A stretch of DNA of 32,650 nucleotides, from the NCBI GenBank assembly GCA_018303045.1, contig JAGVYX010000009.1:1-32650 (forward strand). The letters are read 5' to 3'. Positions 3,189 through 28,007 of this stretch are shown here, piece by piece (position 1 is the first letter of the stretch; each line of letters starts with the position of its first letter). The stretch comes from Candidatus Woesearchaeota archaeon (lineage in GTDB: Archaea; Nanobdellota; Nanobdellia; Woesearchaeales; GW2011-AR9). Made by a program: the position numbers and the translations under genes. A model generated the notes under the pieces. It was not told the origin of the DNA and made no database searches. It saw only the letters and a list, made by a program, of their open reading frames with translations.

Positions 3189-3312
3189 GGGCCGGTAGCT
3201 CAGCTTGGTAGAGCGCTTGACTTTTAAGTCAGGAAGGCATCGCAAATAAGAAATTTGCCGCTTCTTTACTGAAGCTATCAAGCGGTCGCGAGTTCAAATC
3301 TCGTCCGGCCCG
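3189..3312 (+). tRNA. tRNA-Lys(UUU) with one 50-nt anticodon-loop intron
   Basis: Acceptor GGGCCGG/CCGGCCC+G, D-stem GCTC/GAGC, anticodon stem CTTGA/TCAAG with CTTTTA, T-arm GCGAG-TTCAAAT-CTCGT; 74 nt after removal. Confidence 0.92.
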
Positions 3313-26883: not shown

Positions 26884-27624
26884 ATGAATAAACAAAGATT
26901 AAATTCAACAGAATTAGACCAAATATCTACTTTAATTCTTAGTGGTTTTTCCTTAAAGACTATAGCAAATAAGCTTAATAAGAGTAAAACTACAATTTAT
27001 TATCATTTTAGAAAAGTTAAGGGTAAAACTATTATTCCTCTAACAATAAATCGATTAAACGACGAGTTGATTGGTGAATTTATCGGTTTATTCGCCGGTG
27101 ATGGTTCTTTTTACAAGACTAAAGATTATAAATATAAAATAAGGCTTCATTTTAGTTGCAGAGACCAGAATTATGTTGATAATTTGATCAAGAACGTATT
27201 AGTCCCCTTATTTAATAAAAAACCAATGCAATTTTTAGAAGAAAATAGACTTAATTTATGCTATAATTCTAAGGAACTTTATGGATTTATCAAACAGTAC
27301 TTGCTTTGGGATCATCATTTAAAGAAAACGTATACAGTTAGACTTATTTCAAATAATTATTCAAAGAAATTTTTAATTGGTTTTATTAGAGGTAGTTTAG
27401 ATAGTGATGGTCATTTTTCATCTGATAAAATTTCCTTTGCAACAGTTTCAACTAATCTTAAAGATAACATTATTTCTGCTTTAAAAATTTTAGATTTAAC
27501 CTATTCTGTTGGGTATTATGTTGATAAAAGACCTAATCGGGTTGGAATTTATCATATTAATATCCCCAAGGGAGAACATCCTAAGTTTATATCATTGATA
27601 AAACCAAGAAATATGAGGAGCTAA
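26884..27624 (+). CDS. HTH-LAGLIDADG homing endonuclease
   Basis: N-terminal HTH (SGFSLKTIANKLNKSKTTIYYHFRK); two LAGLIDADG-type helices EFIGLFAGDGSF and FLIGFIRGSLDSDGHF. Confidence 0.9.
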   Translation: MNKQRLNSTELDQISTLILSGFSLKTIANKLNKSKTTIYYHFRKVKGKTIIPLTINRLNDELIGEFIGLFAGDGSFYKTKDYKYKIRLHFSCRDQNYVDNLIKNVLVPLFNKKPMQFLEENRLNLCYNSKELYGFIKQYLLWDHHLKKTYTVRLISNNYSKKFLIGFIRGSLDSDGHFSSDKISFATVSTNLKDNIISALKILDLTYSVGYYVDKRPNRVGIYHINIPKGEHPKFISLIKPRNMRS

Positions 27625-27625
27625 A

Positions 27626-27771
27626 TGCACCGGCCGGGATTCGAATATCCGAACGCCGCTCCTCGAAGCGTTTCCCGGATCATCGGCTGACTTCTGGATA
27701 ATGGAAGGCCGACATTTGCTCGTTCCAATGCCATTAACAAATGGAACTACTAGCCGTTATACTACCGGTGC
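27626..27771 (-). tRNA. tRNA-Gly(UCC) with three introns (about 33 nt D-arm side, 13 nt at 37/38, 28 nt at 53/54)
   Basis: Acceptor GCACCGG/CCGGTGC+A, anticodon stem TCGGC/GCCGA with CTTCCA^A, T-arm CCGGG|AAACGCTTCGAGGAGCGGCGTTCGGATA|TTCGAAT-CCCGG; 72 nt after intron removal. Confidence 0.87.
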
Positions 27772-28007
27772 TTAATCAGTTATTTAAAGAGATTCTTTAT
27801 TAAATTTTTGGTGCTTTGTAATACTTCACTATTCTGAAGCCGCTTAATTATATTTTAGGAGTATTGAAAAGCTTATTTACTTGTGTTAGCTACTTTGTAG
27901 CTAAATGAAAAAAGAGGTCAAAATAGAATTATTGGGCTTTGAAATGCTTGAAAAGCAAGTAAACCAAAGTGGAAACAGTGGTCGACACCTGATAGATAAT
28001 CGGTTTT

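Follow-up and report, generated by a model that had tools for sequence, protein, structure and literature searches.

A three-intron tRNA-Gly(UCC) gene and a convergent LAGLIDADG endonuclease gene in a Woesearchaeales archaeon: a candidate tRNA-specific homing system

In the window analysed here (i.e., the whole 32,650-nt stretch of contig JAGVYX010000009.1), a tRNA-Gly(UCC) gene interrupted by three short introns is followed, 1 nt from its 3' end, by the stop codon of a convergent gene for a LAGLIDADG homing endonuclease. The best reading of this arrangement, with a probability of roughly 0.6, is that of a tRNA-specific, free-standing homing endonuclease whose target would be masked by the T-arm intron, together with a covarying helix which that intron would form with the 3' trailer. 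Its relevance concerns the origin and spread of archaeal tRNA introns, as the intron at position 53/54 travels with the endonuclease gene on the same tRNA and both differ jointly between sister species. The tRNA gene comprises the following parts (BHB, bulge-helix-bulge):

27626..27771, minus strand: tRNA-Gly(UCC) gene, 146-nt precursor, discriminator A73, CCA not encoded
27749..27771, minus strand: exon 1 (nt 1-23), with the boundary 23/24 taken from the BHB register (24/25 is equally suitable and gives an identical mature RNA)
27716..27748, minus strand: D-arm intron, 33 nt, relaxed BHB, BHB score 9/10
27702..27715, minus strand: exon 2 (nt 24-37), with the anticodon UCC
27689..27701, minus strand: anticodon-loop intron at 37/38, 13 nt, relaxed (bulge-helix-loop), BHB score 8/10
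27674..27688, minus strand: exon 3 (nt 38-53)
27646..27673, minus strand: T-arm intron at 53/54, 28 nt, canonical BHB, BHB score 10/10, at a position common to about 20 relatives
27626..27645, minus strand: exon 4 (nt 54-73)
27795..27804, minus strand: TATA-like box TTTAATAAAG, about 25-34 nt upstream of the tRNA, read from the sequence

The minus strand of 27626-27771 runs GCACCGG...CCGGTGCA. When the introns (33, 13 and 28 nt) are taken out, a 72-mer remains which ARAGORN calls tRNA-Gly(TCC); the raw, unspliced gene is missed by this program and stays below the threshold of Rfam RF00005. The original prediction had given the three introns (including D-arm and T-arm sites), their lengths, the coordinates, the minus strand and the 72-nt cloverleaf correctly. 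It had also described the T-arm motif, which is indeed canonical: central helix UCCG/CGGA, bulges GGA and UAU, inner helix AACGC/GCGUU and, in addition, outer helix UGA/UCG. The check with a BHB-aware tool that it proposed was carried out with a self-written finder based on the acceptor, D, anticodon and T stems plus the invariant bases, with up to three introns allowed, each with a scored BHB motif. In a scan of the whole bin, the same three introns were recovered ab initio with a score of 22.1, while two first-order Markov versions of the genome (about 2 Mb) yielded three hits, all of them with three introns and all scoring below 16.

The intron junctions are fixed, since the spliced 72-mer aligns without indels to the uninterrupted tRNA-Gly(UCC) of a relative (G004; 93% identity, E 1.6e-25). 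The D-arm motif is relaxed, with an outer helix ACG/UGU, a central helix in which GCU plus an A.G mismatch faces AGC, bulges GUA/AAA and an inner helix GUUCCA/UGGAAC. The anticodon-loop motif, also relaxed, has a central helix CUUC/GAAG, a 3' bulge UCA and a 5' bulge fused with the short loop. A box resembling TTTATAAA lies upstream of the tRNA in three relatives (G011, G034 and G015), at a distance similar to that of the TATA-like box here. A consensus tRNA product, one canonical and two relaxed motifs, and the presence of EndA and RtcB genes are what characterizes a BHB-type intron-containing tRNA gene; 27626-27771 thus appears to hold a functional tRNA-Gly(UCC) gene of a member of Woesearchaeales, with a predicted splicing pathway. 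On its own, this three-intron gene is a further case of the known multi-intron tRNAs.

The host is a Woesearchaeales archaeon, and the relatives of its DnaJ belong to Woesearchaeota; the bin (G000) has 1.01 Mb in 74 contigs and is 84% complete. Introns occur in most of the tRNAs found on its archaeal contigs. For instance, tRNA-Thr(UGU) on the minus strand of L156 (G000:C57) parses with three introns (D-loop, anticodon loop and T-loop), and tRNA-Gly(GCC), at 1856-1962 of the window (minus strand), has a 23-nt D-arm intron (22/23) plus a 12-nt intron at 37/38, and is miscalled by ARAGORN as Arg(CCG). Multi-intron tRNAs are ordinary in this genome, and woesearchaeal tRNA sets are badly under-called by standard tools. 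Two other genes of the window lie near each other on the plus strand: a probable multi-intron tRNA-Tyr of uncertain parse (2652-2805) and a tRNA-Lys(UUU) with a 50-nt intron (3189-3312).

According to the original prediction, a second intact tRNA-Gly(UCC) elsewhere would mark this gene as a pseudogene. Such a copy does exist in the bin, on contig C47 (L071), where it stands alongside PilB/PilC and pseudopilin genes. Contig C51 (L072) carries genes for LepA, PrfB, FtsE and FtsX; the tRNAs of both contigs have U73 or an encoded CCA, and their intact tRNAs are those for Gly(UCC), Pro, Gly(CCC), Thr and Gln. Both contigs are bacterial contaminants, probably from Patescibacteria. The possibility that the interrupted gene is a decayed copy, with decoding left to another tRNA-Gly(UCC), draws on that intact copy and fails because the copy is bacterial; moreover, the spliced tRNA retains all stems, G18G19, T33, TTCGA and A73, and resembles the intact tRNAs of relatives. 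No evidence of a pseudogene was found, and such decay is highly improbable.

Regarding the splicing machinery, the bin contains an RtcB gene and one EndA, close to the catalytic subunits of N. equitans and M. jannaschii. Compared with the M. jannaschii enzyme, this EndA has no insertion at the position of the Crenarchaea-specific loop, and a hidden Markov model of 30 alpha subunits found no second subunit in the bin (at 84% completeness, and with a very divergent beta subunit able to escape such a search). Among 38 relatives with a match, 37 have a single EndA gene, the exception (G018) being a split hit. Of the hallmarks of the broad-specificity forms, (alpha-beta)2 or epsilon2 (PMC6379350), neither a second subunit nor the Crenarchaea/ARMAN-specific loop was found in this bin. 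Relaxed motifs are known to be processed well only by two-subunit and epsilon2 enzymes (PMC6379350), which makes a single-gene EndA next to relaxed introns a small puzzle. In Thermoproteales, too, a contiguous tRNA gene can be interrupted by two or three short BHB introns, located at canonical as well as non-canonical positions, with three as the maximum per gene (PMC4033280, PMC3218864). The present case differs from them in (i) its host, a member of DPANN; (ii) its single alpha-type EndA; (iii) the linked endonuclease; and (iv) the intron loop that would pair with the trailer.

The neighbouring gene, which the original prediction does not mention, is the following:

26884..27624, plus strand: LAGLIDADG homing endonuclease gene, 246 aa, with an N-terminal HTH and two LAGLIDADG motifs, convergent with the tRNA, stop codon 1 nt from the tRNA 3' end

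Its product has a LAGLIDADG_3 domain (PF14528, above the cut-off). A profile built from 27 relatives retrieves I-DmoI (E 7.6e-10), and an AlphaFold model (pLDDT 92.5) matches the same enzyme (E 3e-10, target TM 0.74). Domain, two motifs and fold identify it as a LAGLIDADG homing endonuclease, with predicted cleavage activity.

In a protein search of 60 genomes, the best matches were genes convergent with tRNA-Gly(UCC) in G011, G034 and G015. Relatives were collected by protein search only, and their tRNA neighbours were inspected afterwards. In all 30 inspected loci from 353 genomes of the order, a tRNA gene lies at most 116 nt, and mostly 5-14 nt, from the 3' end of the endonuclease gene (six of these loci, L244, L247, L252, L254, L255 and L266, were read by eye). 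The same holds for 11 additional loci, drawn from other families of the class and from two more of the order: a tRNA lies at the 3' end, and some of the frames overlap it (L273 and L275 were read by eye; the tRNA of L276 is partly readable). In total, 41 of 41 inspected loci abut or overlap a tRNA gene at the 3' end, one of these tRNAs being readable in part, where chance would give about 1%.

The clades of this family follow the tRNA: those of Gly(UCC), Gly(CCC), Ala and Ile are each monophyletic, with the endonuclease gene convergent with the tRNA for Gly(UCC) and Ile, and in tandem with it for Gly(CCC) and Ala. On the tree, the isotype label changes six times, which is the minimum, versus 16.5 times in shuffles. 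The hosts of the Gly(UCC) clade belong to seven families, a spread more in keeping with tRNA-specific homing than with vertical neighbourhood. As in a free-standing homing element, the gene lies outside introns and inteins, is fixed beside one target gene and is patchy among close relatives. It does not belong to a mobile BHB intron with an internal endonuclease, of the I-DmoI type: the introns measure 13-33 nt and the ORF stands outside the tRNA gene. Among open PMC papers, no report was found of tRNA introns in Woesearchaeota or of such tRNA-linked endonucleases. Apart from this family, a more distant LAGLIDADG relative at 854-1387 of L289 (G197) lies upstream of a tRNA-Gly(UCC) with D-arm and 59/60 introns; possibly, it represents a second endonuclease lineage on this tRNA.

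The tie between the endonuclease and the 53/54 intron can be described at three levels: (i) within the main Gly(UCC) clade, the intron accompanies all 13 endonuclease loci, of which 10 belong to the order and three (G407, G442 and G522, two of them read by eye) lie outside it; (ii) among 40 genomes sampled irrespective of the endonuclease, the intron is present in 4/4 with the endonuclease versus 3/25 without (Fisher p 0.0015), while an order-wide Fisher value of 1e-14 was set aside, given that the DNA pattern misses some 53/54 introns; and (iii) in contrasts within one genus, intron and endonuclease differ together in four out of five. The concordant contrasts are G124/G125 (which have a D-loop intron in common), G096/G097, G196 vs. 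G045/G197, and G160 vs. G162/G167/G172; the discordant one is that of G246, which keeps the intron without endonuclease, beside G245.

A different explanation is that the flank of the tRNA gene is a tolerated landing site, with the T-arm not being targeted and the three introns ordinary and unrelated to the endonuclease. Multi-intron tRNAs are common in this genome and in the order, 53/54 introns without endonuclease occur in G012, G021, G024, G135 and others besides G246, and in other clades of the family the gene lies at the 5' flank of tRNAs that have no T-arm introns, all of which suits this explanation. Set against it are the intron in 13/13 loci of the Gly(UCC) group and the joint difference in four of five genus contrasts, and it is regarded as rather unlikely, though far from negligible. 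The introns without endonuclease would be explained by loss of the latter. On the other hand, since the endonucleases of the Ala and Gly(CCC) clades adjoin tRNAs without a T-arm intron, immunity through an intron is not general in the family.

For the preferred reading, that of a tRNA-specific homing endonuclease with its target masked by the intron, cleavage, homing, splicing and immunity are deduced from sequence data, and the following steps are proposed. The endonuclease would cut tRNA-Gly(UCC) genes in a T-arm region that no intron interrupts; during repair on the donor template, the endonuclease gene would be copied together with the flanking 3' half of the tRNA. The donor itself would be immune because its 53/54 intron splits the target. 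The tRNA would remain functional through splicing: the splicing endonuclease would open the precursor at its three BHB-type junctions, and RtcB would ligate the exons (the genes for both are present).

Two further features concern the RNA structure of the precursor:

27658..27664, minus strand: T-arm intron loop GAGGAGC, complementary to the trailer
27615..27621, minus strand: 3' trailer GCUCCUC, 4 nt after A73, partner of the intron loop, within the 3' end of the LAGLIDADG ORF (other strand)

Here the loop is the exact complement of the trailer. The loop of the 53/54 intron is complementary to the 3' trailer of its tRNA in at least 12 genomes; matches of 7-10 bp, different in sequence but identical in position, are found in G011, G034, G196, G160, G245, G096, G135, G021, G012 and G246, and in G015 the complementarity lies 34 nt further on. 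Across 19 loci, introns scored against their own trailers reach 310.5, compared with a permutation mean of 234.1 and maximum of 285.5 (0 of 100,000 permutations reach the observed value). By the same test, the complementarity of the 59/60 and D-arm introns with the trailer is not significant. A helix count on 11 loci gave double changes in 7/7 pairs (29 cells; shuffled mean 6.9); its segments had been selected as complementary, so that of the two it is the permutation test that is free of bias. Intron loop and trailer therefore probably pair in a covarying helix, a precursor-tRNA structure of which no earlier report was found in open PMC papers.

This complementarity could also be an inverted repeat at the DNA level, a relic of templated (fold-back) insertion or of a replacement that took in the whole unit, and not an RNA helix. 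Intron and trailer lie within 60 bp and could be replaced together by conversion, and a GGACTG core is common to several loci; nevertheless, at least seven unrelated sequence pairs occur on homologous introns, all of them with double changes, and two members of one genus (G245 and G246) have different pairs, each complementary. The DNA-level origin is a minority possibility, appreciably less probable than not. In the favoured RNA helix, the 3' end of the tRNA would be tied to the unspliced intron; in a mature-like fold, stacking of the helix on the acceptor stem would leave the 3' end blocked, from which it may be guessed that 3' processing by RNase Z is delayed until the T-arm intron has been removed.

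Loci without the match (G024, G158, G173, G124 and G271) mostly have longer intron stems, a difference in stem length between loci with and without pairing that is only suggestive (p 0.07). The match was rejected as a trait of the endonuclease, being present in G012, G021, G135 and G246 without it and absent from two loci that bear it (G124 and G222). Also rejected was the idea that a pseudoknot stabilizes the BHB fold relative to the mature T-stem: between loci with and without pairing, local energies do not differ (p 0.73; calculated with the G124 intron one base short). As to G015, an in-frame TAG interrupts its endonuclease gene (L210/L252), and the trailer complement lies about 35 nt from the tRNA; this locus is an element in decay.

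Taken together, tRNA, endonuclease and helix stand between SegB-like free-standing homing and collaborative homing. SegB of phage T4 is a free-standing homing endonuclease in a tRNA region (PMC2988022, PMC13096335), and here too the endonuclease gene lies beside a tRNA gene and outside any intron; SegB, however, is a GIY-YIG enzyme of a phage, whereas the present family is of cellular archaeal LAGLIDADG type, with many tRNA-specific clades and BHB introns in the adjoining tRNA. Collaborative (trans) homing of endonuclease-less introns is known for self-splicing phage introns (PMC2988022). Both that system and this locus combine a free-standing endonuclease with a small intron, separate from it, at a conserved site nearby; the intron here, by contrast, is a protein-spliced tRNA intron, and cleavage is a prediction. 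With I-DmoI, the protein shares the two-motif monomeric LAGLIDADG fold, as judged from profile and predicted structure. I-DmoI is encoded inside an rRNA intron, unlike the present gene, which lies outside any intron and has an N-terminal HTH. A wider proposal, held tentatively and at somewhat less than even odds, is that in Woesearchaeales and related DPANN a tRNA-specific, free-standing LAGLIDADG family moves short protein-spliced introns in trans, with the BHB intron serving as an immunity tag and its loop pairing with the trailer in a dedicated precursor structure. If true, movement in trans by endonucleases would provide a mechanism for the gain and spread of archaeal tRNA introns.

The intron set of tRNA-Gly(UCC) varies widely among relatives: (i) no introns (G004, G007, G010, G019, G026 and G029); (ii) 37/38 only (G003, G022, G023 and G039); (iii) 59/60 only (G017 and G037); (iv) 37/38 plus 59/60 (G001, G006, G008, G013 and G028); (v) 20a/21 plus 53/54 (G011, G024 and G034); and (vi) 20a/21, 37/38 and 59/60 (G014). 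The introns of G003, G006 and G014 were partly read by eye. Within a single genus, G245 has D-arm and 53/54 introns, and G246 has 37/38 and 53/54 introns. In the relatives compared, 53/54 and 59/60 introns never occur together in one tRNA-Gly(UCC). Each site changes 5-7 times on the EndA tree, whose poor resolution does not allow the polarity of intron gains to be derived. As the set changes between and within genera, these introns are mobile or easily gained and lost.

This turnover bears on the link with split tRNAs drawn by the original prediction. In Caldivirga maquilingensis, tri-split tRNA-Gly is made from separate transcripts joined in trans (PMC4090602), and the present gene is likewise a tRNA-Gly disrupted in the D-arm and the anticodon loop. 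An intermediate towards or from such split genes would fit this sharing of tRNA regions (PMC4090602), and is very improbable in view of the D-arm site (23/24, not 25/26), the exons lying in one contiguous 146-nt gene instead of at separate loci, and the turnover of introns between and within genera; the link was thus rejected. Multi-intron tRNAs being ordinary here and introns at these sites turning over, no split-tRNA intermediate is indicated.

Finally, the 59/60 T-loop introns of L045 (G017), L048 (G001), L053 (G006) and L189 (G014) have in common a sequence of about 65 nt (AAGAGGTTTAGCTTAGAAAATCCAGCTGGTTAGTC..GAC..TAAAACCTGTCTCGAAAG), which is perhaps a structured or guide RNA.
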